DNA from: Sulfurimonadaceae bacterium
GTDB lineage: Bacteria > Campylobacterota > Campylobacteria > Campylobacterales > Sulfurimonadaceae
Direction: 5' to 3'
DNA: 47,969 nucleotides
Assembly: GCA_028683835.1 (NCBI GenBank)
Contig: JAQUHB010000017.1
Span: 1 to 47,969 of the forward strand
Notes under the pieces: model-generated
Databases searched by the model: none
Told to the model about the DNA's origin: nothing
Seen by the model: only the letters and a program-made list of their open reading frames with translations
Position numbers and translations under genes: made by a program
Part shown: positions 6,955 to 27,344 of the stretch, piece by piece
How the letters are laid out: every line of letters starts with the position of its first letter
Numbering within the stretch: position 1 is the stretch's first letter

Positions 6955-6969
6955 GAAAGGTTTAATTTA

Positions 6970-7824: not shown

Positions 7825-7869
7825 AAAATTGATTTTTAAAAAATGGAGATTTTTTATAGAGAGTTGAAG

Positions 7870-11243: not shown

Positions 11244-11360
11244 ATAACCTCATTTCTATATTTTATTTAAATATTACATATTATAACAAAAATTACTAGT
11301 TCAAAAGCAGATTTGAAAATTGCCAAGTTCATAAGAAAAACTCATAATGGAGGGATTCTT

Positions 11361-11489
11361 ATGAAAGAGAAAATAATTTTTTGTTTAGTGGATAATTTAT
11401 TAAAGATAATGTACATGCAAAGATTTGTACACATAGATATTTTCATAGAAACTATTAAAATAGCGTACATCAATTTTATATGGATATGA
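11361..11489 (+). CDS. Possible 42-residue small protein on the opposite strand
   Basis: ATG 11361 has a GGAGGG site 6 nt upstream, a far better Shine-Dalgarno than chance would usually give here. The frame is open for 42 codons to TGA 11487-11489 and encodes a hydrophobic/basic peptide (MKEKIIFCLVDNLLKIMYMQ and on). It lies in the 290-nt gap between two minus-strand cassette genes. A perfect 9-bp inverted repeat, TGGATATGA/TCATATCCA (11481-11505), starts at its last codons but has no T-run. No family is recognised. It may be spurious. Confidence 0.3.
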   Translation: MKEKIIFCLVDNLLKIMYMQRFVHIDIFIETIKIAYINFIWI

Positions 11490-11533
11490 AGCGCTATCAT
11501 ATCCAAGTGATTACAGCCACTTATCGACCATAG

Positions 11534-11896: not shown

Positions 11897-11905
11897 CTTC
11901 TTTCC

Positions 11906-12094
11906 TTATTTATTAAAATCAAGCAATTTATCAAAAAATGACAACTCTACTTTCTTCATTTCTGTTTTACATTTTGGACAGATATTATTAAGTTCTTTAA
12001 AATCTGTCGAATCCAGACAGTCACTTTTTAATTTAACAATTCTGCTGTATCCGCATGTTGGGCATTTATATTTGAATGGTGGGGGCTTAATCAT
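11906..12094 (-). CDS. Small zinc-ribbon protein
   Basis: 62 residues with two CxxC knuckles (C11-C14 in CPTCGYS and C39-C42 in CPKCKTE) spaced as in rubredoxin-like zinc ribbons, so one structural zinc is expected. It lies 53 nt after the 199-residue gene and 9 nt before the 120-residue gene, in the same operon. Similar small ribbons serve as adaptors or nucleic-acid binders. No specific role can be assigned. Confidence 0.75.
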   Translation of the reverse strand: MIKPPPFKYKCPTCGYSRIVKLKSDCLDSTDFKELNNICPKCKTEMKKVELSFFDKLLDFNK

Positions 12095-12147
12095 TTTTTG
12101 CCTACTTTTTTTTAATTTTGTAACGCATAGTGAGTTTAAAAGGATAT

Positions 12148-12747
12148 TTAAGAGATTATGTCTTTTCCAATTTTCTCAAAAATTCTTTTTAGTGTTCTAT
12201 TTATTGTCACACTATCAAAGCTTATAGGTAACTGGATTATGTCATATATTCTATCGTTTAATAAGATAATATGTTGCAAACAATTTCTTTCTTTTTCGCT
12301 ATAAGTGCTGTAATCATTTGATCTTGCAAGAAGAGTATCAAGGCTATCGAGTTTCATATTCAAATGTTCTTGAGCTTTTTGTAGAATGACAATAAACTCT
12401 CCAATTTTTTTACTATTTTCATCTGTTAGAGCAAGTTGATTGTATTTATCATCATCTGATTCAAATGAAGGAAATTCGATAGTTCTTCCAATATTTGTTA
12501 TCTCACTGAGAGCAAGATTGACCTCTTTTAGAGTCGTTACATGTAAAGAGTACTTTACGCTTTCATACTCTTCTAATATATTTTTTGGATTCTCATTATG
12601 ATGTTGAAATTTATCAATTAGATCAACAAAAATATTCTTTCGAGTAAGCTTGCAAAGATCAAATTGACCATTATTTTCATCACAGTATCTTTTAAGTCCA
12701 TATCCTGCCGTTGCCAGTGCTACTCCACCGAGTACAAGTCGTAACAT
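12148..12747 (-). CDS. Unknown protein with N-terminal membrane anchor, first gene behind operator copy 2
   Basis: 199 residues. One N-terminal hydrophobic segment (about 3-18, LRLVLGGVALATAGYG) ends in a Lys-Arg stop, so a cytoplasmic, membrane-tethered, all-helical domain is likely (about 40-199). It is rich in Leu/Ile heptads and has two to three possible coiled-coil helices. RBS TAGGAG lies 6 nt before ATG 12747. Operator copy 2 is centred 55 nt upstream, so this gene opens a unit continuing through the zinc ribbon and the 120-residue protein. I recognise no family. Confidence 0.75.
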   Translation of the reverse strand: MLRLVLGGVALATAGYGLKRYCDENNGQFDLCKLTRKNIFVDLIDKFQHHNENPKNILEEYESVKYSLHVTTLKEVNLALSEITNIGRTIEFPSFESDDDKYNQLALTDENSKKIGEFIVILQKAQEHLNMKLDSLDTLLARSNDYSTYSEKERNCLQHIILLNDRIYDIIQLPISFDSVTINRTLKRIFEKIGKDIIS

Positions 12748-12793
12748 TTTCCACTCCTAATTTTTATTTATATTAGAAGCTTATCGGTGCCAT

Positions 12794-12813
12794 ATGACAG
12801 GTTATGTCGTTTT
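12794..12813 (-). promoter_or_regulatory. WYL-cassette operator, copy 2
   Basis: ATGACAGGTTATGTCGTTTT on the plus strand, identical to copy 1. The palindrome centre (12802) falls on the stop codon of the WYL regulator gene and lies 55 nt before ATG 12747. A -10-like TATAAA follows 22 nt after the palindrome on the minus strand, so the site would overlap the -35 region. Confidence 0.8.
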
Positions 12814-13695
12814 TAAATATTCTTGTAGCGTTTTGTTTAGCTTTTCTTGTAAATAGCTTGGAGATGTGATTTTTATATAGGGAAGCCAATATTTGACAAT
12901 ATTTATGATCTCATCATCGTAAGAGACTTTTGTAGAGAGTATGAGCTTATCTTCTGTTTGTTCGATGATCTTTTTATTTGGAAGAACTTCTTTACGCAAA
13001 AAATACTCTTTTGCACTGTTATCGATTGCAAGTGTCACTTCTATAGTAGTTTGAGAAAACCAATTGATCTCATTTTTATCTATCATTTTTACAAACTCGT
13101 CATTAGGAACAAACTTCTTATCTTCAAGAGCTTTAAGATTTGAGATCTTATTGAACGTGTAGGTCTTTAATACGCCGTCTTCATCTGCTGCAAGATACCA
13201 AATACCATTATTACTTACTAGCTTATAGGGATTAACTTCTCTTTGTTTTTCATTATATTGAAATTCAATACACCAATGATGTAAGATAGCGGCACTGACA
13301 TTTTCAAATTCATCTGTTTTATGGTGTAGACTCTCAAAACTTTGGTTTCTAACCAAATATGCTTTGTTGATTTTGCTATTGAGGATATCCGTTATAAAAC
13401 CATTATTTAATGATGGGTACAGAGATTTGATGCCACTGATTACTGCAAAATTTTTGATATCTTCAAAGTTGAGTTTACCAAGAGCATAACTGTCTAAAAA
13501 ATAATAGTCTTGCTCTCTTACAATAGGCAAAAATTGTAGTCTCTCATTGAGATCTCTTTGTATAGTTCTCTTATTGACATTGAATTCCACTACCAGATCA
13601 TCAACGGTAAATCTTTCTCCACCATTAAATTTTGTAAGTATCAAGGCTAGTCTATTAGCTATTTTGTCATGCGATTCTTTTGCACTGCTGCTCAT
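12802..13695 (-). CDS. WYL-domain transcriptional regulator (HTH-WYL-WCX)
   Basis: 297 residues with the standard YafY-type layout. An N-terminal winged HTH (about 16-58, with DDLVVEFNVNKRTIQRDL) is followed by a WYL domain (about 136-192, carrying the name motif W166-Y167-L168). A C-terminal WCX extension spans about 215-293. WYL proteins sense ligands such as nucleic acids or nucleotides, and several (BrxR, CapW) control anti-phage loci. Three copies of one palindrome, one upstream of this gene's unit, make it the likely binder, with autoregulation. Whether it represses or activates cannot be told. It follows a 46-residue membrane protein by 119 nt. Confidence 0.92.
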   Translation of the reverse strand: MSSSAKESHDKIANRLALILTKFNGGERFTVDDLVVEFNVNKRTIQRDLNERLQFLPIVREQDYYFLDSYALGKLNFEDIKNFAVISGIKSLYPSLNNGFITDILNSKINKAYLVRNQSFESLHHKTDEFENVSAAILHHWCIEFQYNEKQREVNPYKLVSNNGIWYLAADEDGVLKTYTFNKISNLKALEDKKFVPNDEFVKMIDKNEINWFSQTTIEVTLAIDNSAKEYFLRKEVLPNKKIIEQTEDKLILSTKVSYDDEIINIVKYWLPYIKITSPSYLQEKLNKTLQEYLKTT

Positions 13696-13814
13696 GGCAA
13701 TCTCTTTTTTATTTGGGGATTGAGGATTTTATCTGTAATGCGATGAAGTACTTATTAAAAAGCGGAGCTTGAATTTATCAAAAATCAATACTTCTACATA
13801 AAGGCAACACTACT

Positions 13815-13955
13815 TTATTGTTTTACAAATAGATCTTTAAAAAAGAAGTAGATACTAAATATAACAAAAAAAATTGTTTGAATAACTTTTACTATCGCCA
13901 AAATGCTCAATACAACTACAAGGCATAATAGAATCACCAAGATAGCATTTATCAT
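13815..13955 (-). CDS. 46-residue membrane protein, first gene behind operator copy 3
   Basis: ATG 13955 is preceded by AGGAGA with 5-nt spacing, and the frame runs 46 codons to TAA 13815. The product is almost entirely hydrophobic, with a helix at about 4-25 (AILVILLCLVVVLSILAIV) and a Phe-rich second half ending KDLFVKQ. It therefore probably forms one or two membrane spans. Operator copy 3 is centred exactly 55 nt upstream, the same spacing as copy 2 to its gene. Position and ribosome site support a real gene. The function is unknown, and candidates are a toxin-like or membrane-stress peptide. Confidence 0.65.
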   Translation of the reverse strand: MINAILVILLCLVVVLSILAIVKVIQTIFFVIFSIYFFFKDLFVKQ

Positions 13956-14086
13956 TCTTTTCTCCTATATATTTTTATAGTGATAAGTATAGAAGCAAAG
14001 AATGACAGGATATGTCGTTTTGTGTATAGTTTATGAGGGCTAACGCCCTCAGTGAGAAAAGGAAAACTTCTTATAAATATTACACG
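13956..14086. other. Promoter region of the WYL regulator unit
   Basis: 131 nt between the small membrane protein start and the DUF2958 gene stop. It holds operator copy 3 and a TATAAA-like hexamer, followed by the AGGAGA ribosome site. No terminator with a T-run was recognised for the DUF2958 gene. The phrase 'gagggctaacgccctc' (about 14035-14050) is a short hairpin that could serve. Confidence 0.5.
14002..14021 (-). promoter_or_regulatory. WYL-cassette operator, copy 3
   Basis: ATGACAGGATATGTCGTTTT on the plus strand, one base different from copies 1 and 2 and in the central spacer only, so the GACA/TGTC arms are kept. The palindrome centre (14010) is 55 nt before ATG 13955. A TATAAA-like -10 follows 23 nt after the palindrome on the minus strand. 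It probably gives autoregulation of the WYL regulator. Confidence 0.78.
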
Positions 14087-14398
14087 TTATTCTCGCTCAT
14101 CTTCTTTGATTTTGGATAATGATGTTGGCTTAAACGATAAATCTCGCTCTACTGCTACACCGAGTGAACCACGAATCGATTCTAACTCTTCAAGGGAAAA
14201 ATAGCCAAGCTCACTCTCTAATCCTTGTACATAGCCGAAACAAGTTGTTGCATCGGCTTTTGATAACTCTATAATATACCAAGTCCAGTTTGCATCTGGT
14301 GTGAAGAGTTTGATATGGCATATTGGGTCTTTTATATCTTCCGTCTCATAAAGATCAGGAAGACTGTTTAACAGTGATTGCGGAATAAGCTTACTCAT
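14087..14398 (-). CDS. DUF2958 domain protein
   Basis: 103 residues from ATG 14398, chosen because it sits 1 nt after the Rad52 stop with AGGCGG upstream. A longer reading would run deep into Rad52. The sequence shows the DUF2958 signature: LIPQSLLNSLPDLYETE, then FTPDANWTWYIIE, GYVQGLESELGYFSLEEL and VERDLSFKP. DUF2958 proteins are common on plasmids, conjugative elements and prophages and have no known biochemical role. It is the last gene of the recombination operon. Confidence 0.85.
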   Translation of the reverse strand: MSKLIPQSLLNSLPDLYETEDIKDPICHIKLFTPDANWTWYIIELSKADATTCFGYVQGLESELGYFSLEELESIRGSLGVAVERDLSFKPTSLSKIKEDERE

Positions 14399-14399
14399 C

Positions 14400-15134
14400 T
14401 TATGCCGCCTGTTGTTCGGTGATTGGCTTATACCACTGTTTGGAAGCAGCGTCCCATCTAAAACCATAAGCCTTAATACTATCTTTCTTTGCAAATATAT
14501 CATCTCCCAATACTATAAGCTTATTTCCTTTTTGCATAACACTCAGACCTATATTAAAGAGTGATGCGTAATCTTGCGATGCAGAATTGTGAATCGGTTG
14601 TGTTTGTGGTACAGGTTGTTGGTGATTTTGTGAAGCGTTCTGATGCGAGTGTGGAGCTGGTTTATTTTCTGAAAGTTGCTTTGCATTGGTATAATCAACA
14701 TCTTTTTGTTCTGGATCATACAAAGGATTACCCAGAGAATTTCCAAACGATTTAGCAGTTCTTTTAAGAGCATCCGAAATACTAGCCTTGCTCGCCGTTT
14801 CCATGGCTTCACCTATTGTCTTTGCGATTGACACAGAGATACCGTTATCTTCGCGAATGATATAATTCTTATGGTTTGTATCCCAGATTTTTAATCTAAC
14901 TATCGCTGAAAAAGTCACAACATGATTTCCGTTTTGATTAGTTGTAGAATTTAGCATTTCAAGCTTTTTAACGAGTGTTTCCCATCCATCATATCCGAAT
15001 ATGAGATTAAGGGTATTCACAATGTCAAATGTAGGAATATAGCTAAAGACGCGTCCGGCTTTCTCTAATGTTTTAACTCTTGAACCATCTAATGGATAGC
15101 TCAAAAGTTTCTGTTGTCGATCATTGAAAAACAT
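14400..15134 (-). CDS. Rad52/Rad22-type single-strand annealing protein
   Basis: 244 residues. Residues 1-140 match the Rad52 annealing core, with a GYDGWET motif (47-53) and the family-defining KASISDALKRTAKSFG (116-131), followed by NSLGNPLYD. Such proteins anneal complementary single strands in phage and plasmid recombination. The middle (150-195) is a Gln/His-rich linker, and the C-terminus (about 200-244) has YGFRWDAASKQWYK, a short domain often seen on mobile-element proteins. RBS AAGGAGAT precedes ATG 15134. It lies 15 nt after the Gp157-like gene and 1 nt before DUF2958. The assignment is firm. Confidence 0.88.
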   Translation of the reverse strand: MFFNDRQQKLLSYPLDGSRVKTLEKAGRVFSYIPTFDIVNTLNLIFGYDGWETLVKKLEMLNSTTNQNGNHVVTFSAIVRLKIWDTNHKNYIIREDNGISVSIAKTIGEAMETASKASISDALKRTAKSFGNSLGNPLYDPEQKDVDYTNAKQLSENKPAPHSHQNASQNHQQPVPQTQPIHNSASQDYASLFNIGLSVMQKGNKLIVLGDDIFAKKDSIKAYGFRWDAASKQWYKPITEQQAA

Positions 15135-15149
15135 AGTAATATCTCCTTT

Positions 15150-15740
15150 TTATGCCGCTTTTTGATTCTCGACTAATGAGACCAGTTCATCAGCTTGTGT
15201 GACTGTGGTGCGCTTTACATTGACTTTGATCTTTGCGGGAGTGGTGATAATCTTAGACTCAATTGCAACATATTGATCTAGCTCCTCCATTCCCTCAATA
15301 CTCATCATCGCTAGCTCAATTGCGGCGATATCAGGTTCATATTTGATATAGCCTAAGCCCATCACTGCCTTTTCATCAAGTATTTTCAAAGAAAGCTTAG
15401 TTTTTGAGGTTTGAGGTGCTAGTGTAAGAGAGCTGATGATATTGCCATCTATTCTATCTATGCCGTTACTTTCAAATATGGAAGCAATGATCTCTTTGGA
15501 TAATTCAAAAGCTTCTGATAGTCTCTTTTTTAGAGATTGTAGTTCTTGTATATCTTTTGAAAGCGTTTCTATCTTTGTTTGTATCTCTAAAATTGAGAGT
15601 CCAACGAAGTCTGCTCTTTGGTGATAAGGCTTAGTGGTGTCTTGCAAAATTGAGCGGATGTAATCCATAAAGTACTCAGGAGAGCTCTCTTTTGAAATGC
15701 GTTCCATCTGTGATTGCAGTCTTGTGTTTACGAGTTTCAT
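15150..15740 (-). CDS. Gp157-like phage protein (coiled coil)
   Basis: 196 residues. A helical N-terminus is followed by a strong coiled coil (about 48-90, IQTKIETLSKDIQELQSLKKRL). The beta-rich tail, SSLTLAPQTSKTKLSL and KIKVNVKRTTVTQADEL, resembles siphovirus Gp157 family proteins, which lie next to phage annealing proteins and have been linked to resisting host nucleases. Position just before Rad52 fits this. RBS AAGGAG precedes ATG 15740. The similarity is by pattern only, so the name is moderate. Confidence 0.6.
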   Translation of the reverse strand: MKLVNTRLQSQMERISKESSPEYFMDYIRSILQDTTKPYHQRADFVGLSILEIQTKIETLSKDIQELQSLKKRLSEAFELSKEIIASIFESNGIDRIDGNIISSLTLAPQTSKTKLSLKILDEKAVMGLGYIKYEPDIAAIELAMMSIEGMEELDQYVAIESKIITTPAKIKVNVKRTTVTQADELVSLVENQKAA

Positions 15741-15750
15741 GTTTTTCTCC

Positions 15751-16575
15751 TTATGCCGCTAACGCCATTGCAGGCGTTGGCGGTTGTTTTATATTTGATA
15801 TCTGTTTTGCTATGTTCCATAGTTGTTTATTTAACTTCAGATTGGCATCAATGGCAGTTATAGGCTTGGATCTGAACGATTTCCCTGTATCAAGGTTATA
15901 ACCTTTAACTCCGCCTCTAATGACGGCTTCTTGTACGCGGTTAAATACACTCCAAAGAGTTGCATCATCATCCTCTTGTCTATGAACCTGTAATAGATCC
16001 CTTGCCTGAACTTTGTGGATATCCCTAAATCTGATATCTATTGCAGCATTTGCAATAGCATGTTGTTCAATGGGTGAGAGCTCTATCGTTTTGAAGCGAT
16101 CTATTTCCTCTTGCATACGAGGAATATGTGATGTGACTTCATCAATTGCCATATTGATTTTAGAGAGGTTAAATCCAGAATGGATAATGGAGTGATGAGC
16201 GAAAGTATGTGATGGAACTAAAAGCATATTGGAGCAGACTATACGCCAACATGCCAGATCAACAATAAATGAAGATGTCCTATTATGGGAGTTTGTTAAA
16301 ACAATGTCTGCATACTCTTGGTTGGCATCTGGTCTTAGCAGATTTTCAATGCTTCTAAACTGAATGATATGTTTTTGATAGCCCTGATTATCGGTATTAC
16401 GCACTTTACTCTGACTCGCCATAATAGGATAGTATCCCGCATTTCTAAATGTATCTAGTATCGAATATGTAGGTACAAACGCGTATCTGTCTGAAACGCC
16501 TTCTATTGGTGTATCTGCAAAGATGGATGGTGCCGCAGCTTTGAGCTGGGCATCTGTTAATGGTATTTTTGACAT
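15751..16575 (-). CDS. DUF932 phage/plasmid-like protein
   Basis: 274 residues. The sequence follows the DUF932 (phage/plasmid-like, TIGR03299-related) pattern, with SDRYAFVPTYSILDTFRNAGY and SNMLLVPSHTFAHHSI. Later come RARDLLQVHRQEDDDATLWS and the ending NIAKQISNIKQPPTPAMALAA. Proteins of this family are found in prophages and plasmids near recombination functions, and their molecular role is unknown. RBS AGGAG lies before ATG 16575. The small upstream gene stops 2 nt before it and the Gp157-like gene follows 10 nt after. Confidence 0.82.
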   Translation of the reverse strand: MSKIPLTDAQLKAAAPSIFADTPIEGVSDRYAFVPTYSILDTFRNAGYYPIMASQSKVRNTDNQGYQKHIIQFRSIENLLRPDANQEYADIVLTNSHNRTSSFIVDLACWRIVCSNMLLVPSHTFAHHSIIHSGFNLSKINMAIDEVTSHIPRMQEEIDRFKTIELSPIEQHAIANAAIDIRFRDIHKVQARDLLQVHRQEDDDATLWSVFNRVQEAVIRGGVKGYNLDTGKSFRSKPITAIDANLKLNKQLWNIAKQISNIKQPPTPAMALAA

Positions 16576-16577
16576 GC

Positions 16578-16724
16578 TTATTTCTCCTGTTGTCGTAAAT
16601 GATCTGTATTAGAGAACTTCCACCATCTTTTATGTTTTTTCTTCATTTTTGAGGTGGATTCATAAGTGCTAGCTACTGCTGTAGCGACTAAGATTGCGAC
16701 TGTTATACATTGGGCTGGGGTCAT
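16578..16724 (-). CDS. Small single-span membrane protein
   Basis: 48 residues from ATG 16724, with an AAAGGAAA ribosome site. A longer reading from 16814 would cover the divergent promoter and lacks a ribosome site. It has one hydrophobic segment (about 4-20, AQCITVAILVATAVAST) followed by a strongly basic tail (KMKKKHKRWWK). It is the first gene of the recombination operon. The function is unknown. Small basic membrane peptides are common at the head of mobile-element operons. Confidence 0.6.
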   Translation of the reverse strand: MTPAQCITVAILVATAVASTYESTSKMKKKHKRWWKFSNTDHLRQQEK

Positions 16725-16758
16725 TGGGTATTTCCTTTGTGTTAGATTGGTTTTGATC

Positions 16759-16834
16759 GTTTGAATAATATGTGAGTGAAAAAGGTTTGAAATAAATTTT
16801 TTTGAACAATCCATTCGTTTGAAAAAGATTCAAA
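16759..16834. promoter_or_regulatory. Repeated GTTTGAA boxes in the divergent promoter
   Basis: Three GTTTGAA copies (16759, 16785, 16817) plus a related TTTGAAC (16801) lie between the minus-strand recombination operon and the plus-strand HTH gene. The last copy forms a palindrome TTTGAA-N5-TTCAAA (16818-16834) just upstream of the ribosome site of the HTH gene. This arrangement suggests binding sites for that HTH protein or a relative, by inference. Confidence 0.45.
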
Positions 16835-16849
16835 TAAGGAAAATGAACG

Positions 16850-17065
16850 ATGAAAACAGATTTTGAAAAACTGATTCCGAGTGGCGTGCTGTTTAGCTTG
16901 AAAGATGTGGAAAATATGGGAATTATAAAGGTCAATATGGCAAAAAAGTTAATCGCTAAGAGAATGATCGAGTATGTGAAGATCGGGAGTAAGCTTCATA
17001 TCTCTAGAGGCGAGCTATTACGATACCTCGAAGAGAATACGAAGGCTAGAATGTGTACTATATGA
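16850..17065 (+). CDS. Small helix-turn-helix protein, excisionase-like
   Basis: 71 residues. The core FSLKDVENMGIIKVNMAKKLIAKRMIEYVKIGSKLHISRGELLRYL (about 15-59) has the MerR/Xis-type winged-helix order of HTH_17 proteins, with recognition helix, short wing and the phrase following K-x-G-x-x-x-x-I. AAGGAAAA precedes ATG 16850. It is divergent from the recombination operon and convergent with the helicase gene, 5 nt apart. Excisionase or operon regulator are both possible. No integrase is in the window. Confidence 0.7.
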   Translation: MKTDFEKLIPSGVLFSLKDVENMGIIKVNMAKKLIAKRMIEYVKIGSKLHISRGELLRYLEENTKARMCTI

Positions 17066-17070
17066 GGATG

Positions 17071-18513
17071 TTATGTATGTTTGATTGGAAAATATTTAAC
17101 ACCATTGCTAATATGAATATTTTGTATGGCGAAGAGTTTAGGATCTATTTTTCTTAACTCTTTCATCAATCCTCTTATAGTATTAAACTCACTATCACCG
17201 TATAGAATGTTATAGTACATAAGGAGTTGAGATTGTTTTACTCTGTTTTTTTGAAAATTGGCATGTAATTCTTTATAAACTACATTATTTTTCAGTTTAT
17301 TAAAGTAGCTTATATCGTTTGCTTTAAGAGCTTTAACAAACTTTTCTAAATTACTTTCTTGAATAACAATCATTTTACTTTTATCGTCATCTTGAAAAGT
17401 CAGTTGAGCGTTCTTTGGATTTATTTTGTAAGATCGAAGAAAAAATGCAAAATTGTACAGATCTTCTTGTATCATCTGTTCAAGATGATCTACATTATGT
17501 AGGTGATTTTGTTCAAGAAAATTGGTAAGTTTTAAATCTAATTTGAATAATGTGCAGTTCTGCTGGAGATTTGTATTATCCAGTTGTAAGAGTTTTGAAG
17601 AGGTGATGAGTGTTTGTCCATGAATTTTTATCTCTTTGGAGACACTTTTATTTTTTTGCTTAAAAGTTGTAGCATTACTAGTTATTAATCCATGTAAAAA
17701 TCGATTATCTAAGCTTTCAGAGGAGAATTCATTTAGATTATAGAAAATTTTATCTTCTACAGCTTTATCTAGATCACTTGTACTTAGATCTTCTTCATAT
17801 AGCGTGATACAATATTGAGCCCCAAATAATGGTTTAATAATCTTGTCGTATAAAATATCTATTCCCGAATCTTGATCTCCTATTAAAACGAGTGCAACAG
17901 AAGATTTCTGGAGTGTTTGAATAAAAAATGCTAGCCAGTTTATAATATATTGAAATTTAGCGACATTTTCATTTGAGAGATGAAAAATATATTTGATAAT
18001 AACTGAGTCAGTTAAGTTATAAGGTATTATGTACTGCTTGATCATATACATTGTTGGAATGAAAGTATTTCTATGGTATGTCTTATAACTAGTCGAGTAA
18101 AATTCTTCCATTTTGGAAGGGTTAAATTCCTCACCAGTAATAAGTACAAGATCATGAAAATATAATATCATCTGCTGATCGGAAGGTAAATTGCGTGTTT
18201 TTTTGAAACTTATATTAAAGCGATTATGTAAAATACTTTTCATCTCTTCAAAAGAAACAGTAACTATTTTTTCAAAAGGTGAAGATCTATAGCATATCTT
18301 ACCAGTGTTATTTAGCCATACAGCCCACTCAGAACTCCATAATAGATCAAGAGCTTTGTTGGTGGGGAAGGCAAGGTCTGAATCGTTTCTTGCTTTTTGT
18401 GTTCTGCATTTATGTAAATTATTAAAATCAAAATAGGTTAGATACGCATTGTGAAGTTGTTTACAATGTTGCAAAATATGAAATAAATCTTCTTCTCTTT
18501 TGTTTATAGCCAT
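17071..18513 (-). CDS. D5-like/DUF5906 plasmid-phage helicase with altered Walker A
   Basis: 480 residues. The region about 185-330 follows the primase-associated SF3 helicase pattern (INWLAFFIQTLQKSSVALVLIG, later IIKPLFGAQYCITLY, KIFYNLNEFS, and HGQTLITSS). The P-loop, normally GxxGxGKS-like, reads GDQDSGID at 212-219, so the catalytic Lys and the Ser/Thr are missing. The Walker B-like segment with E262 persists. ATP hydrolysis is therefore doubtful. The C-terminal part (about 390-480) is a separate helical domain. ATG 18513 heads the gene. It probably belonged to the same plasmid- or phage-derived element as the Rad52 operon. No primase domain is seen N-terminally. Confidence 0.72.
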   Translation of the reverse strand: MAINKREEDLFHILQHCKQLHNAYLTYFDFNNLHKCRTQKARNDSDLAFPTNKALDLLWSSEWAVWLNNTGKICYRSSPFEKIVTVSFEEMKSILHNRFNISFKKTRNLPSDQQMILYFHDLVLITGEEFNPSKMEEFYSTSYKTYHRNTFIPTMYMIKQYIIPYNLTDSVIIKYIFHLSNENVAKFQYIINWLAFFIQTLQKSSVALVLIGDQDSGIDILYDKIIKPLFGAQYCITLYEEDLSTSDLDKAVEDKIFYNLNEFSSESLDNRFLHGLITSNATTFKQKNKSVSKEIKIHGQTLITSSKLLQLDNTNLQQNCTLFKLDLKLTNFLEQNHLHNVDHLEQMIQEDLYNFAFFLRSYKINPKNAQLTFQDDDKSKMIVIQESNLEKFVKALKANDISYFNKLKNNVVYKELHANFQKNRVKQSQLLMYYNILYGDSEFNTIRGLMKELRKIDPKLFAIQNIHISNGVKYFPIKHT

Positions 18514-19265
18514 TATTATTCTTTAGATCATTTATTTTATTATTTTAGTTGCTTTTACCTTAAATAAGTATTTTATAAAGTATCTAGACTAACTATAATA
18601 CTAAAATACCGTTATTTAAAAGTTTTTTTAAATAACTAAAAATTCTAAAGTATAAAAAATTTAAGCTATATTGCGTAAAAAAAGTATCTAAAATATTAAT
18701 TAGAACCTACATAGTTCTGTATTAGAAACTTACAAAAGAGAAGTAAAAGTTAAAGTCCTATTCCTTTAGTTTAGTGATGATTTCCTTCGTGCAAATAACA
18801 TAAGATGATAATTTTTCCAATATAGATCATATTACACAATTGATCCAAAAACTTTTGGCATTGGCAAAATTGACGTAACGGTTAATAAGGAACTTTTATA
18901 TAAAGTGGATATAAAGTGTTTTTTAGTAAAATGCGTACAAGCTAAGTGAGGGTTTCACTTAATTATGAAAATTAAAATAAATCCCTACCAAAATAAAAAA
19001 AATGTATAAAAAGTAGGGATTGAAAAAGGCTTTAGATTGCGTAATATATGGAATTTTTTCATATTTGTCATAGATATCAAAGAGATCTCTATTTAATTAA
19101 ATTGGAACTAAATATGAATGGCTATAGAACCCCTGTAATGTAACTTTTGTACAGTTTTATTATATTGTATTTAGATTTTTTTGACTTATATGGTTAGTTA
19201 ATCATTTTTTTATTAACGTTGATGTAGCTTATCCTTATATAATGCGATAAGAAGAGATTTTATAC
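18514..19265. other. 752-nt non-coding spacer between island and signalling genes
   Basis: No ORF with a ribosome site was found on either strand. It contains a perfect 10-bp inverted repeat GTTATTTAAA/TTTAAATAAC (18611-18636) and a direct repeat ATATAAAGTG (18898 and 18909). It also has a palindrome TAAGTGA-N5-TCACTTA (18943-18961) and arms AATCCCTAC (18980-18988) / GTAGGGATT (19013-19021) with a 24-nt loop. It ends with the promoter of the HD-GYP gene. It could include the element's origin or attachment region. No flanking direct repeat was identified. Confidence 0.55.
19238..19243 (+). promoter_or_regulatory. -10 box for the stressosome/HD-GYP unit
   Basis: A consensus TATAAT 23 nt upstream of ATG 19266, in a T-rich stretch without a good -35, as is usual for Campylobacterota sigma-70 promoters. 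A GTTAAT/ATTAAC inverted repeat (about 19197-19216) lies just upstream and could bind a regulator. Confidence 0.55.
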
Positions 19266-20336
19266 ATGAAAGAGTTTGCAAAAAATAGTGAAGTTCAGGT
19301 ATTAGATGCACTCGTTGCTGCGATTGAGCTTCGTGATGCATATACAAAGGGTCATTCAAAGCGTGTTGCTTATTTTGCTTCTGCACTAGCTAAAACATTG
19401 CAACTAACAGACCATGAAATTAAAGATATATATTTTGCTGGACTGGTTCATGACCTAGGAAAAATAGGTATTCCTGATGTAGTTTTACTTAAGCCTGAAC
19501 GTTTAACAGAAGCAGAATATGCTATGATCAAGGAACATAGCAATCTCTCTGCAGTTATAATTAATACTATTGATGCATGGCGTCATCTCATTCCTCTAGT
19601 TCGGCATCATCATGAAAGAATGGATGGGCAAGGTTATCCCGATGGTTTAATTGGTGAGAATATTCCGCTTGGAGCGCGCGTTTTAGCGATAGCAGATATT
19701 TATGATGCTCTTACCAGTCGCCGTGTATACCGAGAAGGTATGCCTCAGGAACAAGCAAAATGTTTACTGCAAGAGATGGCACATGATGGACATATTGATC
19801 TAAATTTAACAGAAGTATTTGTCAAAAATATACATTCATATTCTCTTCCTGAAGATTCAGATGGAATCTATTTAAAAAATCTCGAAATCGCAAGAAATAC
19901 ATTTTTTTATAAAGATTCTTTAACGTCACTTTTTAATCGCAATGCTCTATTGATTTTAATCAAAAAAGCGATTGTCAAAAAACTGCATGTGACTTTGATA
20001 AAGTTTGACATAAAAGCGTTTAAAGAGATCAATAGTAAATATGGGATTTTGCATGGAGATAAACTCTTAACCCAGATCGGAGTGTTATTAAAACAATATT
20101 CGCCATTGAGTGAAATTATCGACGTTAATAGTGGTGATATTTTTGCGTGCAGAACGATGGCAGATAATTTTTTACTTCTCTATGTAGGTGATGCAGTAGA
20201 TTATTTTGATTTTAAAGTGGACTCAATTATAAAAAATATAGAAACAAATATTAATGTCAAACTTAAGATCGCTGTGATTATTTACAATTATAGTAGTGAT
20301 CAGACCAATAGTCTTGAATGGGGATATCTGATATGA
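19266..20336 (+). CDS. HD-GYP phosphodiesterase with degenerate GGDEF domain
   Basis: 356 residues. The HD-GYP domain (about 10-195) has GHSKRV, the metal pair H62-D63 in VHDLGKIGIP, and HHERMDGQGYPDG (115-127), all intact. It should therefore hydrolyse c-di-GMP to pGpG or GMP. A second domain (about 215-345) begins like a GGDEF (YKDSLTSLFNRNAL, VTLIKFDIKAFKEINSKYG). However, the signature position reads MADNF (298-302), so it cannot be a cyclase and may be a regulatory GTP-binding or partner domain. There is no sensor domain. The next gene starts inside its stop codon, tying it to the RsbT/RsbX-like switch that probably controls it. Confidence 0.88.
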   Translation: MKEFAKNSEVQVLDALVAAIELRDAYTKGHSKRVAYFASALAKTLQLTDHEIKDIYFAGLVHDLGKIGIPDVVLLKPERLTEAEYAMIKEHSNLSAVIINTIDAWRHLIPLVRHHHERMDGQGYPDGLIGENIPLGARVLAIADIYDALTSRRVYREGMPQEQAKCLLQEMAHDGHIDLNLTEVFVKNIHSYSLPEDSDGIYLKNLEIARNTFFYKDSLTSLFNRNALLILIKKAIVKKLHVTLIKFDIKAFKEINSKYGILHGDKLLTQIGVLLKQYSPLSEIIDVNSGDIFACRTMADNFLLLYVGDAVDYFDFKVDSIIKNIETNINVKLKIAVIIYNYSSDQTNSLEWGYLI

Positions 20337-21304
20337 AACGTCTTCGTCGTTTTCCTATAACGAATAAGAGTGATCTCATTTATGCAAAGATAGAAATTGG
20401 TCATTATTTTGAAGATCCACATGAAAGAGAAATATATTTATATGCATCTATGGAGCTAGGAAGTAATATTATAAAGCACTCAGGCAGTAATGGTGAGTTA
20501 TGGTTGCTTGAGCAAAATGGATTTCTATCGATTGTGGCTTGTGATAGGGGTGTCGGCATAGGCAATATAGAACTTGCTCTTCAAGAGGGGTACTCTACCT
20601 TTATAGAGTCTTCATTAGGAATAGGGCTTAGTTCATTATGTAAATTAGACAATTATGATTTGGAAGTATTTTCTCTGACGAAGCATAATCTGCATGGCAG
20701 TGTTGTTTTCTTTGGCAAAAAAACACAACAAAAACAGACAGTATGTTTATCTATCCCCTTTGATGATAACTATAATGGAGATTTTGTCGCAAGTAAGGGA
20801 AGACTGATCGCTTTTGGAGATGTTGCCGGACATGGGCAAAAAGCTTTTAGTACAGCATTAGAAGTGATAAGTTTTTTTAATCGTCATTGCCATTCAATAT
20901 TGACAATAGAAGATTTTTTTAAATCTCTACATAATAATCTACTTGAAAATGATTTACGTGGCTGTGATCTGATTATAGCAGCTGTTGATTCTAATAAAGT
21001 TACAGTTACAGGTGTTGGAAATATAACTATGTGGATGAAAAATAATGGAGAATTTATATCAAGTTCCATAAGATCTGGGAGTGTTGGAACGCATTATTCC
21101 AAATTGACTCATCAAACCTTTGAATTGACTTTATCAAGTCCATTAATTATAACAACAGATGGAGTCTCAAAAGATTGTTTTAAAAATCTCAGTGATACAA
21201 TCAAAAAGGATAATATAAAAGCTTCATTATGTGCGGCGCTTTATTTTTGTGGCTCACTTTCAGATGATGCGTCGATTATTTATTTTAAAGCAAAGGATTT
21301 ATGA
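20333..21304 (+). CDS. RsbT-like kinase fused to RsbX/SpoIIE-type phosphatase
   Basis: 323 residues from ATG 20333, chosen because it overlaps the previous stop as ATGA. An in-frame ATG at 20318 is less likely. The N-terminus (about 1-130) is an HATPase of the RsbW/RsbT class: N-box with E41 and N45 (ELGSNIIKHSG), G1 motif DRGVGI (71-76), and GIGLS (96-100). The C-terminus (about 155-320) is a PP2C/SpoIIE phosphatase with metal ligands in DVAGHG (163-168), TTDG (274-277) and SDD (310-312). It should phosphorylate and dephosphorylate STAS partners. Fusion of both activities next to an RsbR-type protein marks a stressosome-like switch. Confidence 0.88.
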   Translation: MKRLRRFPITNKSDLIYAKIEIGHYFEDPHEREIYLYASMELGSNIIKHSGSNGELWLLEQNGFLSIVACDRGVGIGNIELALQEGYSTFIESSLGIGLSSLCKLDNYDLEVFSLTKHNLHGSVVFFGKKTQQKQTVCLSIPFDDNYNGDFVASKGRLIAFGDVAGHGQKAFSTALEVISFFNRHCHSILTIEDFFKSLHNNLLENDLRGCDLIIAAVDSNKVTVTGVGNITMWMKNNGEFISSSIRSGSVGTHYSKLTHQTFELTLSSPLIITTDGVSKDCFKNLSDTIKKDNIKASLCAALYFCGSLSDDASIIYFKAKDL

Positions 21305-22101
21305 TGCGAGATGTATTGCATGCGTTACAAAAAATAGTCAGAGAAGATCGACAATTACTTATAGATGACTGGGTTGGGTATTTTTCATCAGAAGAGCATG
21401 AGAGTGAGATGAGATATTATTCGGATTTTTTAAGTTTTTTTGATGAATGTATACAAAGTGACTTAGATCCTTTAAGTGAGGAAGCTATTGCTCTCTCAAA
21501 TTTTATGAGAAAAGTTGCAGAGATCCGTGGGGAAGAAAGATTTTATAATTTTAAAAATTCTGTTTATACTTGTTATATTAAATTTCCATTGTTTAAGAGA
21601 CTTGATGAAAGAGGAATATTTCATTATGAGGTTGCTTCTATGATGACAGCTTTTTTTGAAGCTTTAACATCGCGTCTTATTTTTAGAGTAATACAAGATA
21701 ATAACCGTATCCAACAAGCATCAGCGGCAGAACTTTCTGAAAGAGAAGCGCCAATAAGCGAGATTTGGAAAGGAATTTTACTTGTATCAATTGTCGGTAC
21801 TCTGGATTCCAATAGAGTGATTCAAATAATAGATAAAATATTGGAAACGCTAGAGAAACTTGAATCAGAACATGTGATTATTGACATTAATGCTATCTAT
21901 GATGTTAATACGGAAGTTGCAAATCAACTCAGAAAGCTTTATAGTGCAATATCCATGATGGGTTCACATGCCTATTTGACGGGCATCAGTAAAAATATTG
22001 CCAAAGCAATGACTCATTTAGAACTTTCAATCGGGGAAGTACAAACATTTCGTACTACAAGAAAAGCAGTTGAATTTATATTAAAGAAGGAAATAGATTA
22101 G
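21301..22101 (+). CDS. RsbR-type stressosome protein with STAS domain
   Basis: 266 residues. The N-terminal helical half (about 1-140) resembles the non-haem globin-like sensor of RsbR paralogues. The STAS domain (about 152-262) begins PISEIWKGILLVSIVGTLDS and carries VNTEVANQL with Thr204. That residue corresponds to the conserved phosphorylatable Thr of RsbR. ATG 21301 overlaps the upstream stop by 4 nt, and ATG 21304 is an equally good alternative behind AAAGGA. As substrate of the preceding kinase/phosphatase it would relay stress signals. No separate RsbS (STAS-only) gene is in the window, so RsbS may be elsewhere or not needed. Confidence 0.86.
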   Translation: MMRDVLHALQKIVREDRQLLIDDWVGYFSSEEHESEMRYYSDFLSFFDECIQSDLDPLSEEAIALSNFMRKVAEIRGEERFYNFKNSVYTCYIKFPLFKRLDERGIFHYEVASMMTAFFEALTSRLIFRVIQDNNRIQQASAAELSEREAPISEIWKGILLVSIVGTLDSNRVIQIIDKILETLEKLESEHVIIDINAIYDVNTEVANQLRKLYSAISMMGSHAYLTGISKNIAKAMTHLELSIGEVQTFRTTRKAVEFILKKEID

Positions 22102-22191
22102 TGAATTTATTTTATGCACAGATAGTCTTGTTTAAACACGAATTCAATTTTAGTGGCAAAAGTTGTTGAATAATTGTATTTGGATTTGCCG

Positions 22192-24387
22192 ATGAAAAAA
22201 TTATCTCTTGTAAAATTGTTATATGCGGGATTGATAACGAGTTTAATTATTGTTTTTTCTTTATCGGCTTTATCTGTGCTGGAGCATACGAGAGCGATTG
22301 AAGTTACAAAACAAATTCTTCGCCATCCGTTTGTAGTAACCAATACAGTACGAGATATCAGGGTTGATGTAAGAATGCTTTGGGAGATTACCAATAAGGC
22401 TGTTTATGAAAATATATTTGAAGAAGAATCACTTAAAAAAATAGCTGGCACTGAGGGTAAAATCAATCAGGAATTTAAACTTTTAAGAGAACGATATTTA
22501 GGTGAGCCTTCTGATATTAATAGTTTGGAAAAAACATATAAAATACTAGACAGTCAAATACACAGAGCTTTGGAAATCCGAAATATGAGTAATTCTGAAA
22601 ATGCATCAAAGTATCTCAATGATAATCATGTTGAAGAAAATTATCATCTTATGTCTGACGAAATAAATGTAATCATAAAATTTGCTATGAACAAAGCGCA
22701 AGAACTTAGCAGTAGTGCCGATGGCGAACTCAATGAAAATATTCATCAACAAATTGTGTTTTCACTTGCCATATTATCATTAGGCTTAGTATTGGGTGCT
22801 GTTTTAATAAGATTCATTAGAGGAAAATTTTATGAAATAAATTTTATTCTTAAGAATATACAACAGCATAATTTTCAAAAAATACCAATTGACAACAATG
22901 AAGTTGAGGAATTTAGACAGCTTAAAGAAGGTATCAATATTATGGTTGATAGTATAGTTCAATCAAAAAAAATTATCGAAGAAAAAAATTTAGAACTTCA
23001 AAGTACACAACAGTTCTTGGATTTTGCATTACAGGCGAGTAATGAGGGAATATGGGAATGGAATTTAAGTAGTGGAGAAATTAAGGTAAATAATATTTTT
23101 GAAAAGATGCTTGGTTATGCGGAGGGTGAGTGGAATAAAAGTGAAGAAAATATGTTAAAGCATACAAAAGTTGTAGAATTTTCTAAATCTATGGAATTAT
23201 TTGAAGCTCATCTTGAAGGATTAAGTTCCTATTATGAATCTGAATTTGAGATGAGAAAAAAATCCGGTGAATGGATTTGGATTCAATCAAGAGGAAAAGT
23301 TATCGTACGAGATGAAGATGGAAAAGCGCTGATCGCATCTGGAACTCATACTGATGTCACTTTACGAAAACACATTGAAGAGGAACTAAAAAATACATAT
23401 AAAAAACTTGAACAATCGTTAAAAACAATTCAAGATGCAGAAGAGAGTTATCGAGGTCTTTTTAATTCAGTGACGCATGCTATCTATATTCAAGATTTCA
23501 ATGGCAAGTTTATTGATGTTAATCATGGAGCTGAACTCATGTATGGATATACTCGGGATGAATTTATTGGTAAAACTCCGGGTCTTATCTCTGCTCCTGA
23601 TAAAAATGATATGCAACAACTTTCTGAACATATTAATCGTGCAATCGCAGGTGAAGCACAGCGATTTGAGTTTTGGGGCAAGAGAAAAAATGGAGAGATA
23701 TTTCCAAAGGATGTTACTATTGTAAGAGGTAAATACTTTGGAAAAGATGTCTTGATCGCAGTAAGTGTAGATATTATCAAGCAAAAACAATTAGAACAAA
23801 AATTACAAACACTTGTATCAGAAGAAATAGAAAAAAGAATTGAAAAAGAAACTCTCCTTGCACAAGAATCACTCAAAGCCATGACTGATGTACTCACCGG
23901 TATTCCAAATCGAAGAAAGTTTGATGAAACATATTTAAATGAATGCAAAAGAGCAATGAGAAGTGATATATTTTTATCATTAATAATGATTGATATTGAT
24001 TTCTTTAAAAACTATAATGATGCGTATGGTCATAGTGCCGGCGATGAATGTTTGAAAGAAGTTGCTAATCAGCTTGAGGATACAATAGGTCGAGGAAGTG
24101 ACTTTGTAAGCAGATATGGCGGTGAGGAGTTTATATTAATTCTTCCTGCTACAGATATTGAGGGAACAACTAATATTGCACAAAAACTTCAAAAAAGTAT
24201 TGAAATATTAAATATACCTCATGCTTATTCAACCGTTGCAGACCATGTTACAATCAGTCTTGGATGCAGTACAATGAAAATAAAAAAAGAAAGTGACTGT
24301 AAAAAACTTTTACTTCATGTAGATGAGATGCTATATAAAGCTAAAGCTGCAGGAAGAAATAGAGTTTTTTTTGAAAACGAAATTTAG
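22192..24387 (+). CDS. Membrane diguanylate cyclase with two PAS domains
   Basis: 731 residues from ATG 22192. A TTG at 22174 would add six residues without a ribosome site. Order: TM1 (about 10-30), periplasmic four-helix-bundle-like sensor (about 35-185), TM2 (189-207), HAMP-like linker, PAS (about 275-395), PAS (about 420-530), coiled coil, GGDEF (about 565-728). The active site is GGEEF (643-647), and an RxxD inhibitory site, RGSD (634-637), is placed five residues before it. Active c-di-GMP synthesis with product inhibition is therefore expected. It lies 90 nt after the RsbR-like gene. Confidence 0.9.
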   Translation: MKKLSLVKLLYAGLITSLIIVFSLSALSVLEHTRAIEVTKQILRHPFVVTNTVRDIRVDVRMLWEITNKAVYENIFEEESLKKIAGTEGKINQEFKLLRERYLGEPSDINSLEKTYKILDSQIHRALEIRNMSNSENASKYLNDNHVEENYHLMSDEINVIIKFAMNKAQELSSSADGELNENIHQQIVFSLAILSLGLVLGAVLIRFIRGKFYEINFILKNIQQHNFQKIPIDNNEVEEFRQLKEGINIMVDSIVQSKKIIEEKNLELQSTQQFLDFALQASNEGIWEWNLSSGEIKVNNIFEKMLGYAEGEWNKSEENMLKHTKVVEFSKSMELFEAHLEGLSSYYESEFEMRKKSGEWIWIQSRGKVIVRDEDGKALIASGTHTDVTLRKHIEEELKNTYKKLEQSLKTIQDAEESYRGLFNSVTHAIYIQDFNGKFIDVNHGAELMYGYTRDEFIGKTPGLISAPDKNDMQQLSEHINRAIAGEAQRFEFWGKRKNGEIFPKDVTIVRGKYFGKDVLIAVSVDIIKQKQLEQKLQTLVSEEIEKRIEKETLLAQESLKAMTDVLTGIPNRRKFDETYLNECKRAMRSDIFLSLIMIDIDFFKNYNDAYGHSAGDECLKEVANQLEDTIGRGSDFVSRYGGEEFILILPATDIEGTTNIAQKLQKSIEILNIPHAYSTVADHVTISLGCSTMKIKKESDCKKLLLHVDEMLYKAKAAGRNRVFFENEI

Positions 24388-24449
24388 TTTTGTAGATGAT
24401 TAGACAAAAGCAATAGGCAGTATAGGGCTATTTGAAAAAAGGAATTGTT

Positions 24450-27344
24450 ATGAATGAATTACGACTGAACAATATAATTCAGTTTAATAGAAATGGTGTT
24501 TTATTATCAAACAATACAATTGAACAGGCCTTGAGTATTATGTCAGAGGCTGCAATTAGCTCTGTTGTCATAGTAGATCAGGCGAATTATCCGATAGGAA
24601 TATTTACCGAGCATGATGCAATAAATATCATTGCCAAAAACATATCGATTTTAACACCTTTATTCGACGTGATGTCAATAGAGCTTTTTACTGTACCTGA
24701 TACTATTTATCTTCATGATGCATATATTCTCTTGAGTAATGCCGGATACCGACATCTTATTGTTACAAATGAAAAAAAAGAGTATCTTGGCATTGTCAGT
24801 GAAGGTGATTTCTTACGTCTTATGAGTCTCGAACATCTTGATAAGTTGGAGATTGTTGAAGAGGTTATGGACACAACACCTTTACTTATTGAATCAAGTT
24901 TATCTATTCAAGAAGCTGCTAAACTTATGAGTGAACGCCACTCAGATTATGCTATTGTCACTAAAGGTTTTAGTCCAATAGGCGTTATTAATGAACGTTC
25001 AATCTCACAACATTTTATGAATAAACCAGAGAATCATGAGATATTGATCGATCAATTAATTCTTGAAGGTGTTCATTTCATCTCGAAATCAATTCTGCTT
25101 CAAGAAGCTGCACAGCTTTTAACAAAACATGGCGTGCATCAGCTTATAGTTGTTGATGAACAAGAACATGTCATCGGTTTGCTTAAACGTGTCGATGTTT
25201 TAAAAGCAATTCATGGTTCTTTTTTTGAGTTTTTGATTACGACAATAGAAAAAAAGAGCGAAGCACTTGAAAAACTGATCGCACAGCAACAACTTCTGAC
25301 AGAAAAAACAAATCTTTTAAATACGGTTATTAATGCAATTCCTGACCTTGTATGGGTAAAAAACATTGAAGGTAAATATCTTACATGTAATCATATGTTT
25401 GAACATTTTTATGGCACATCTTGTTCTGGAATAACCGGAAAGAGTGATTATGATTTTGTACAGGCTGAACTTGCTGATTTTTTTCGTAAAAATGATCAAC
25501 ATGCAATAGAAGAAAAAAAACCTGTACAGAATGAAGAATATCTTATCTTTAAGGATGGCAGTTATGAGGGGACTTTTGAAACAGTTAAAACACCTGTTAA
25601 GGATACAGAGGGAAAGATTTTTGGTGTATTGGGAGTTGCACGAGATATCAGTGAACGAAAATTAAGAGAGCGGGAACTTCAAGAAAAAGATGATGAACTG
25701 CGTTTTGCTGAGGAATTGGCACATGTGGGAAGCTGGATATGGGACATAAAAAATAATATTTTTAAGGGTTCTGATGAAACACATAGAATCTTTGGAATAA
25801 AAGAATCAGAAACAATTACCTTTGATCAACTCTTATCGTTGGTTCATCCAGATGATAGAGAAATAGTACAAATTCATCTTATGAATGCATCTCAAACAGG
25901 CATATATGATAATGCTGTACGTCGAATTGTAATTGATGATAAAATCAAATGGATAGCTATTTCTGCCAATTTTTCACAAGATGAATCTGGAAACTATGTC
26001 AAAGCACAAGGGATGCTTCAAGATATTACAATACAAAAAAATTATGAATTAGAACTAGAGAGGTTGGCGAATTTTGATTCGTTAACGGGTTTGGCTAATC
26101 GCACGTATTTATTGGCACACATTAATAAACTTATTCATCGAAACAAACGTAATAAAAGTAATGCGGCTGTACTGCTTTTTGATCTTGATCATTTTAGAGA
26201 TATCAATGATAGTTTTGGACACAACATGGGAGATGAGCTCCTTATTCAAGTCGCAAAGCGTATGACCGAGCGTATGCGCCAAGAGGATCTTGTAGCACAT
26301 TTAAGCGGTGATGAGTTTGTTCTTGTTTTGGAAGAACTTCATAACAAAGAAGATGTTGCAAAAGTTGCGCTAGAGATGATCGATATGATATCTGAAGTCT
26401 ATGTGCTTTCTGATAATCTTGAAGTACGTATTGGTGTTAGTGTTGGAATTGTTCTTGTCTCTGAAGATATGATCAATGCAAATGAACTGCTTCAATTTGC
26501 AGATGCCGCATTATATAAAGCAAAAAAAGAGGGACGCAACTGTTATCGTTTTTATTCGAACAAACTTACGGTATTTGTTCAAGAACGTATCCGTTATCAA
26601 AATGAGATCTTTCATGCCTTACAAAATAATGAATTTGAGATGTATTATCAACCTCAAGTGCATATTGAAACAAACAGAATCATCGGTGCAGAAGCACTAA
26701 TACGATGGAACCATCCGACAAAGGGAGTTGTGAGCCCAACAGTTTTTATTCCAATTGCTGAAGAAAGCGGACTGATAGCTCGTATTGGAGAGTGGACATT
26801 GCAGGAATCATGCAAACAGGCTAAAAAATGGCTTGAAGCTGGGCATGACTTTCATATATCTGTCAATGTGTCTATGCATCAACTTCGTCATCATAATCTT
26901 ATAGAAGTTGTAAATGACGCATTAGATCAAAGTGGTTTTTCACCTGATAAGCTTATTTTAGAGCTTACAGAAAGTGCTATGATGAAACATGAGGATGAGT
27001 TGATTACTATGCTTCATCTGCTGCGTGCTAAAGGAATCGGAATTGCGATTGATGATTTTGGGACAGGATATTCATCATATAGCTATCTTAAACGTTTTCC
27101 AATAGATATCCTGAAAATAGATAAGAGTTTCATTGATGATATTCCTTATAAAAAAGATGCAATGGCTATTGTTAAAGCTATAATCTCGATGAGTGAAATA
27201 CTCGGATATCAGATTTTGGCAGAAGGTGTTGAATATATCGAACAAGCAGACTTTTTAAAACAAGAGAGATGCCATTATTATCAAGGATATTTAAAAAGCT
27301 GTCCGATCCCGGCTGCGGAGTTTGAACGTTTATTAGATCGGTGA
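24450..27344 (+). CDS. CBS4-PAS2-GGDEF-EAL c-di-GMP signalling protein
   Basis: 965 residues from ATG 24450 with AAGGA 7 nt before; a TTG at 24432 lacks this. Four CBS motifs (about 10-65, 75-127, 140-190, 203-256) form two Bateman modules that usually bind adenosine nucleotides. Two PAS domains (about 290-402, 415-530) follow, then GGDEF (about 535-700, signature SGDEF at 619-623) and EAL (about 715-960). The EAL domain keeps EALIRW (748-753), ELTES, DDFGTG (868-873) and AEGVE, so phosphodiesterase activity is likely. SGDEF can be active in some cyclases, so it may be bifunctional. It is soluble. Nucleotide level may thus set c-di-GMP turnover. Confidence 0.92.
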   Translation: MNELRLNNIIQFNRNGVLLSNNTIEQALSIMSEAAISSVVIVDQANYPIGIFTEHDAINIIAKNISILTPLFDVMSIELFTVPDTIYLHDAYILLSNAGYRHLIVTNEKKEYLGIVSEGDFLRLMSLEHLDKLEIVEEVMDTTPLLIESSLSIQEAAKLMSERHSDYAIVTKGFSPIGVINERSISQHFMNKPENHEILIDQLILEGVHFISKSILLQEAAQLLTKHGVHQLIVVDEQEHVIGLLKRVDVLKAIHGSFFEFLITTIEKKSEALEKLIAQQQLLTEKTNLLNTVINAIPDLVWVKNIEGKYLTCNHMFEHFYGTSCSGITGKSDYDFVQAELADFFRKNDQHAIEEKKPVQNEEYLIFKDGSYEGTFETVKTPVKDTEGKIFGVLGVARDISERKLRERELQEKDDELRFAEELAHVGSWIWDIKNNIFKGSDETHRIFGIKESETITFDQLLSLVHPDDREIVQIHLMNASQTGIYDNAVRRIVIDDKIKWIAISANFSQDESGNYVKAQGMLQDITIQKNYELELERLANFDSLTGLANRTYLLAHINKLIHRNKRNKSNAAVLLFDLDHFRDINDSFGHNMGDELLIQVAKRMTERMRQEDLVAHLSGDEFVLVLEELHNKEDVAKVALEMIDMISEVYVLSDNLEVRIGVSVGIVLVSEDMINANELLQFADAALYKAKKEGRNCYRFYSNKLTVFVQERIRYQNEIFHALQNNEFEMYYQPQVHIETNRIIGAEALIRWNHPTKGVVSPTVFIPIAEESGLIARIGEWTLQESCKQAKKWLEAGHDFHISVNVSMHQLRHHNLIEVVNDALDQSGFSPDKLILELTESAMMKHEDELITMLHLLRAKGIGIAIDDFGTGYSSYSYLKRFPIDILKIDKSFIDDIPYKKDAMAIVKAIISMSEILGYQILAEGVEYIEQADFLKQERCHYYQGYLKSCPIPAAEFERLLDR

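Follow-up and report, generated by a model that had tools for sequence, protein, structure and literature searches.

Three overlapping genes in a Sulfurimonadaceae contig, encoding an HD-GYP protein, a fused RsbT/RsbX-type kinase-phosphatase (TX) and an RsbR-type STAS protein (R), raise the question of what a stressosome-like switch without RsbS would control, and through which of its proteins. Little is known of what stressosomes control outside SigB bacteria, and in Vibrio the direct output partner of the stressosome could not be caught (PMC9237108); the two-protein switch considered here has an obvious enzymatic output. For the window, that is, the whole 47,969-nucleotide stretch of DNA that was analysed, the reading preferred here, with a probability of roughly 0.55, is a reduced stressosome-type partner switch dedicated to cyclic di-GMP (c-di-GMP), in which TX released from R would control the HD-GYP protein and, where there is one, a diguanylate cyclase. 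Good support exists for the general class of mechanism, in which a STAS phospho-switch controls c-di-GMP enzymes.

The three proteins and their genomic setting

The preliminary description had named the same three overlapping genes, and coordinates, Pfam matches and hhalign comparisons agree with it (Table 1). The first product is composed of an HD-GYP domain (aa ~16–180; Pfam HD_5, E=1.5e-38), a degenerate GGDEF domain (aa ~205–345; E=2e-10) and a conserved C-terminal GYL tail. The residue set H30, H62-D63, H91, H115-H116-E117, GYP and D144 is complete, and a PDB search with the protein returned HD-GYP enzymes; by its HD, HHE and GYP metal/active-site residues it is predicted to be a c-di-GMP phosphodiesterase. 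The GGDEF half carries MADNF in place of the signature, and GG(D/E)EF is found at this position in 0/16 HD-GYP proteins compared, the catalytic motif being lost in every one. The window protein retains N256 and D265 in this half, which we take, by homology with PleD, to be guanine-contacting residues.

TX is read from a conserved Met at its ATG, the listed open reading frame opening earlier, at 20318, and places the kinase at the N-terminus (aa 1–~128) and the phosphatase behind it (aa ~132–323). The kinase half was matched to an RsbT profile by hhalign (99.35%, E=5e-20), its Pfam HATPase match lies under the cut-off (E=0.16), and a phmmer search of the PDB gave chance matches only. The phosphatase half matches Pfam SpoIIE/PP2C (E=3e-7) and the profiles of RsbX-type phosphatases (99.5%), and in the predicted structure of TX (AF2, pLDDT 85.6) it is closest to Moorella MtX (3zt9, Z 19.0), with Bacillus subtilis RsbX also matched (3w40, Z 17.2); the structural search returned phosphatase folds throughout, and the kinase half is assigned by profile-profile comparison. 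In 20/20 relatives the kinase half keeps the N-box residues E41 and N45 and the glycines of G1 and G2, and the phosphatase half its PP2C metal aspartates (D150, D163, D276 and D312). The RsbT kinase thus appears as the N-terminal half of TX, not as a separate protein, and the structure match and metal residues identify the C-terminal half as the RsbX feedback phosphatase.

R joins an all-helical N-terminal domain to a STAS domain (Pfam, E=8e-9). Its best PDB match is Vibrio vulnificus RsbR (7o0i, E=1.9e-20), it groups in a STAS tree with RsbR and not RsbS (support 80/93), and hhalign likewise gives 99.75% for RsbR against 95.75% for RsbS. Thr204, which had been proposed as the phosphosite, aligns with the first RsbR site, presumably T171 of B. 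subtilis RsbR, and 20/20 R proteins have Ser or Thr in its column. At the second RsbR site, which we take to be the T205 position, the window has Ala, and the remaining long R proteins carry Ala, Ser or Asn. With its STAS domain and predicted acceptor Thr, R has the features expected of an RsbR co-antagonist. The N-terminal domain gave an RsbRD_N match in one case of seven (E=0.04) and an hhalign match to RsbRD-type N-termini (82.6%, E=1e-6), while the full-length structural match is to Listeria RsbR (rmsd 7.9); these hint at a helical sensor domain of RsbR type, short of a firm assignment.

Table 1. Coordinates of the predicted features in the window and of selected relatives
Feature	Position	Strand	Basis or remark
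HD-GYP phosphodiesterase (predicted) with degenerate GGDEF half	19266..20336	+	356 aa; Pfam domains, residues, PDB matches
MADNF codons, in place of GGDEF signature	20157..20171	+	Alignment, 16-sequence comparison
TX: RsbT-type GHKL kinase and RsbX-type PP2C phosphatase	20333..21304	+	hhalign, conserved residues, structure match
R: all-helical N-terminal domain (aa 1–~146) and STAS	21304..22101	+	Start may be ATG 21301
Thr204 codon, predicted phospho-acceptor	21910..21912	+	Numbered from 21301; aligns with first RsbR phosphosite
PAS-PAS-GGDEF, possible fourth member	22192..24387	+	Pfam GGDEF E=7e-49; 90 bp downstream of R
CBS-PAS-GGDEF-EAL, putative member	24432..27344	+	Next on same strand; Pfam EAL E=1e-75, GGDEF E=6e-44, CBS E=2e-33
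Lone HD-GYP with degenerate GGDEF	L052:5358-6410		Tail motif and guanine-binding residues altered
STAS-only RsbR-like, TX, GGDEF-EAL	L087:4253-7284		Other genome of same family
STAS-only RsbR-like, TX, GGDEF-EAL	L088:5569-8596		Other genome of same family
STAS-only RsbR-like, TX, GGDEF-EAL	L089:4079-7112		Other genome of same family

In the window the HD-GYP and TX genes overlap by 4 bp and the TX and R genes by 1–4 bp. The PAS-PAS-GGDEF gene that follows occupies the place of a dedicated cyclase found in relatives and missing from the window, the two being alike in their GGDEF domain only; together with the CBS-PAS-GGDEF-EAL gene, it may be a recruited partner of the switch. Terminator-like sites were absent from positions 18500–24600, and promoter-like sites did not exceed the frequency seen in shuffled sequence. 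Upstream, type I restriction-modification, hypothetical and replication- or phage-like genes on the minus strand (1542–18513) form what looks like a mobile island, which stops just before the operon.

The genome (2.51 Mb in 88 contigs, estimated complete; nearest named relative a metagenome-assembled genome of 'Sulfuricurvum sp.') has STAS matches elsewhere only in two SulP transporters and one MlaE-type permease. A search of it with an Arcobacter-type RsbS query, a weak test, gave no match, nor did any free-standing HATPase of RsbT/RsbW type exceed the Pfam cut-off, under which the TX kinase half also falls. These results point, within the limits of the searches, to a genome without RsbS and without a second stressosome, in which the switch would be self-contained. 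The absence of RsbS noted in the preliminary description was borne out, and no full rsbRST cluster was found elsewhere in the genome. Neither RsbS nor a separate RsbT was detected in the operon; the profile scan used for this considers a single ORF at each place and overlooked annotated RsbS genes in some control loci, and the absence of both proteins from the operons rests mainly on the overlapping genes, which leave no room between them. A second PP2C protein of the genome (L040:3241-4878) was considered as a rival phosphatase and rejected, being fused to a Ser/Thr kinase-like domain and unrelated; its gene adjoins nitrate transporter/reductase-type genes. The genome is very rich in c-di-GMP genes, with 58 GGDEF matches in 2.5 Mb, so that some adjacency of the switch to GGDEF genes is expected by chance.

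Relatives across Campylobacterota

Searches for TX in 397 genomes of the phylum, 228 of the family and 21 of a second family yielded 22 loci, spread over 21 Campylobacterota genomes and counting the window and a second locus, L002. Genes for c-di-GMP enzymes adjoin TX in all 22, in three layouts: HD-GYP/TX with or without R and a diguanylate cyclase (15 loci), TX/R/cyclase (four) and short STAS/TX/GGDEF-EAL (three). R is present at each of the 20 loci not cut by a contig end. The HD-GYP/TX overlap is exactly 4 bp in 15/15 loci, with TX/R spacing ranging from -14 to +18; recurrence of the same order and overlap in 14 other genomes indicates that the pairing of HD-GYP with TX is not due to chance. 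In most complete HD-GYP/TX loci R comes next, followed by a cyclase of ~230–260 aa, in which GGEEF and the RxxD feedback site are complete in the five aligned. The single HD-GYP output of the preliminary description needs amending: the link to HD-GYP stands, and the second output enzyme of the relatives, as well as the downstream GGDEF genes of the window, had been missed.

L002 holds the same three overlapping genes (62–80% identity) in another genomic place, and flanking genes vary between most lineages, which indicates that the cassette is conserved and not the locus. In the second family, a site flanked by NifU-like and lutC-like genes carries TX-R-cyclase in three genomes (L019, L020, L091) and HD-GYP alone in another (L052), while the full HD-GYP/TX/R/cyclase operon of L092 adjoins the same NifU-like gene. 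As one syntenic site is found with the full set, with TX-R-cyclase or with HD-GYP alone, the four genes were probably once a single operon, and the layouts are best read as losses from that ancestor. Distance matrices of the HD-GYP, TX and R proteins correlate (r 0.92–0.94), a level reached in 0/2000 permutations. Because these associations are inherited together, the 22 loci do not amount to 22 independent events. Of the original claim that the switch is wired to HD-GYP, the stressosome-like R/T/X set without RsbS, a c-di-GMP link kept in two families and co-varying proteins are upheld.

Some loci differ in composition. In the side branch formed by L087, L088 and L089, the STAS-only R retains both Thr sites. 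An additional GGDEF gene lies directly upstream of HD-GYP (0 or -1 bp) at L017:9306-10073 and L085:4127-4933, the operon there being one c-di-GMP gene longer. In another Campylobacterota family, L029:4928-7999 has a more canonical RsbR(short)-RsbS-RsbT arrangement, behind which lies a phosphatase-histidine kinase fusion.

The cassette might instead be the non-functional remnant of a stressosome that lost RsbS and RsbT, a reading that we regard as very improbable. Its distribution is indeed patchy (TX in 15/228 family genomes and in 0/7 other genomes of the genus), and the HD-GYP copy of L092 lacks the catalytic residues that are complete in the other 15 of 16 proteins. Decay is, however, difficult to reconcile with kinase and phosphatase motifs intact in 20/20 relatives and an equally invariant Ser/Thr acceptor, or with overlapping junctions retained in two families.

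How the switch may reach its output

In the partner switch preferred here, R would use its helical N-terminal domain to sense and to sequester, and in one state unphosphorylated R would hold TX. On a signal TX would phosphorylate R at Thr204 and be released; freed TX could then bind the HD-GYP protein, and the cyclase where one is present, altering c-di-GMP turnover, and the TX phosphatase half would reset R. R would in this way stand in for RsbR and RsbS, and TX for RsbT and RsbX. Given what is known of partner switches and the complete catalytic residues, TX very likely phosphorylates R, and its phosphatase half very likely removes the phosphate again. An output on c-di-GMP is likely, from genetic linkage and from the precedents of Moorella MtT-MtG, SiaABCD, HsbRAD and BgrUVWR.

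The fixed HD-GYP/TX coupling and descent from RsbT favour TX as the protein that contacts the enzyme. R is also a candidate for this role by reason of its tight junction with the cyclase gene, overlapping or abutting in every cyclase-bearing locus, and of its slow evolution: mean identity among relatives is 57% for R, 48% for HD-GYP and 38% for TX, and the best conservation of the three is what would be expected of a protein with several partners. A precedent exists in SiaC and HsbA (PMC8457831, PMC7647112), and R, phosphorylated or not, might similarly bind the cyclase or HD-GYP protein directly, with TX only setting the phosphorylation state. This is the less likely of the two, in that R and TX are of RsbR/RsbT descent, where it is the kinase that delivers the output (RsbT to RsbU, MtT to MtG), and the fixed 4-bp coupling joins HD-GYP to TX, not to R. 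Somewhat more tentative still is a push-pull arrangement, with TX controlling HD-GYP and R the cyclase, such that one phosphorylation would flip both synthesis and breakdown and R would do the work of RsbR and RsbS. The switch is reduced to two proteins, and some operons hold both a cyclase and a phosphodiesterase, so that three or four purified proteins should suffice to decide between the kinase and the STAS protein as carrier of the signal.

On the enzyme side, the degenerate GGDEF half is a possible docking site for the switch. No RsbU_N docking domain was matched at E<=1 on the window HD-GYP protein or on the relatives' cyclases. An allosteric nucleotide site fits at least as well as docking, because the guanine-contacting Asn256 and Asp265 are both kept in 14/16 proteins, and the half may serve as docking site, nucleotide sensor or both. 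Taken further, it might sense GTP or c-di-GMP and control HD-GYP alone, TX and R being merely co-expressed and acting on a distant target. Retention of these residues where the catalytic motif is lost in all 16 would suit this possibility, which is nevertheless improbable: a close form of the half (C-terminal half at E<1e-70) is confined to genomes that have TX-R, the next best match being 5e-19. The two proteins without Asn256, those of L052 and L092, are the most diverged HD-GYP copies and both lack the GYL tail; L052 is without TX-R, and L092 still has it.

Comparison with known systems

The RsbRST(X) stressosomes of B. subtilis, Listeria and V. vulnificus share with the window an RsbR-type STAS protein, an RsbT-type kinase and an RsbX-type phosphatase. 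Unlike them, the window has neither RsbS nor a separate RsbT, its gene order is TX-R rather than R-S-T-X, and the second RsbR phosphosite is lost from its R and from other long R proteins. A pseudo-icosahedral R:S assembly is a further feature of stressosomes. Modules of rsbRSTX with c-di-GMP genes downstream are reported (PMC9237108).

The kinase-phosphatase fusion, initially singled out as the unusual part, proves to be ordinary: Sphingomonas, Paraburkholderia and Salipiger have it next to rsbRST, and equivalents occur in Deinococcus. In phyla beyond Campylobacterota, sampled via plasmid records, five Pseudomonadota/Deinococcus modules were examined, and in these the fused TX accompanies an RsbS and an RsbT that are proteins of their own; R-S-T-TX followed by an ATP-binding protein is seen in Sphingomonas aliaeris, Paraburkholderia sp. 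D15, Salipiger and D. radiodurans, the fused proteins of Pseudomonadota being annotated 'ATP-binding SpoIIE family protein phosphatase'. These modules have the same fusion adjoining RsbR but keep RsbS and a separate RsbT, and the gene that follows is for a histidine kinase-like, ATP-binding protein instead of a c-di-GMP enzyme.

A kinase/phosphatase/STAS-like trio is likewise common to SiaABCD and HptB-HsbR-HsbA-HsbD of Pseudomonas aeruginosa and to BgrUVWR of Sinorhizobium, but their parts are of other descent and their outputs are cyclases only, with no HD-GYP enzyme. SiaC is not known to be RsbR-like, and HsbR is a response regulator. TX has no HsbR-type receiver domain, its kinase domain standing at the very start, and the relatives' cyclases scored 142–172 bits against a cut-off of 290 for a SiaD-type cyclase, over the GGDEF part only. 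SiaABC, HsbRA and BgrUVW all have cyclases as their targets (PMC4976288, PMC12143880, PMC7647112), with the STAS protein itself as effector in the case of SiaC and HsbA (PMC8457831, PMC7647112).

Moorella thermoacetica also combines an RsbT-type kinase with a c-di-GMP enzyme, and its MtX is closest to the TX phosphatase half; the RsbT homologue MtT is described as acting on the diguanylate cyclase MtG in the account of Quin et al. 2012 given by PMC12143880. Moorella keeps RsbS and has an RsbU_N-GAF-GGDEF cyclase, whereas the window has a putative HD-GYP partner and no detectable RsbU_N. A literature search for HD-GYP control by an RsbTX/RsbR pair without RsbS, or for a stressosome or RsbR with HD-GYP or Sulfuricurvum, found no description. 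Partner-switch control of cyclases is already known; new here are the loss of RsbS and of a separate RsbT, TX as the sole kinase and the fixed pairing with c-di-GMP enzymes. If the proposed switch is correct, HD-GYP enzymes would join the known partner-switch targets.
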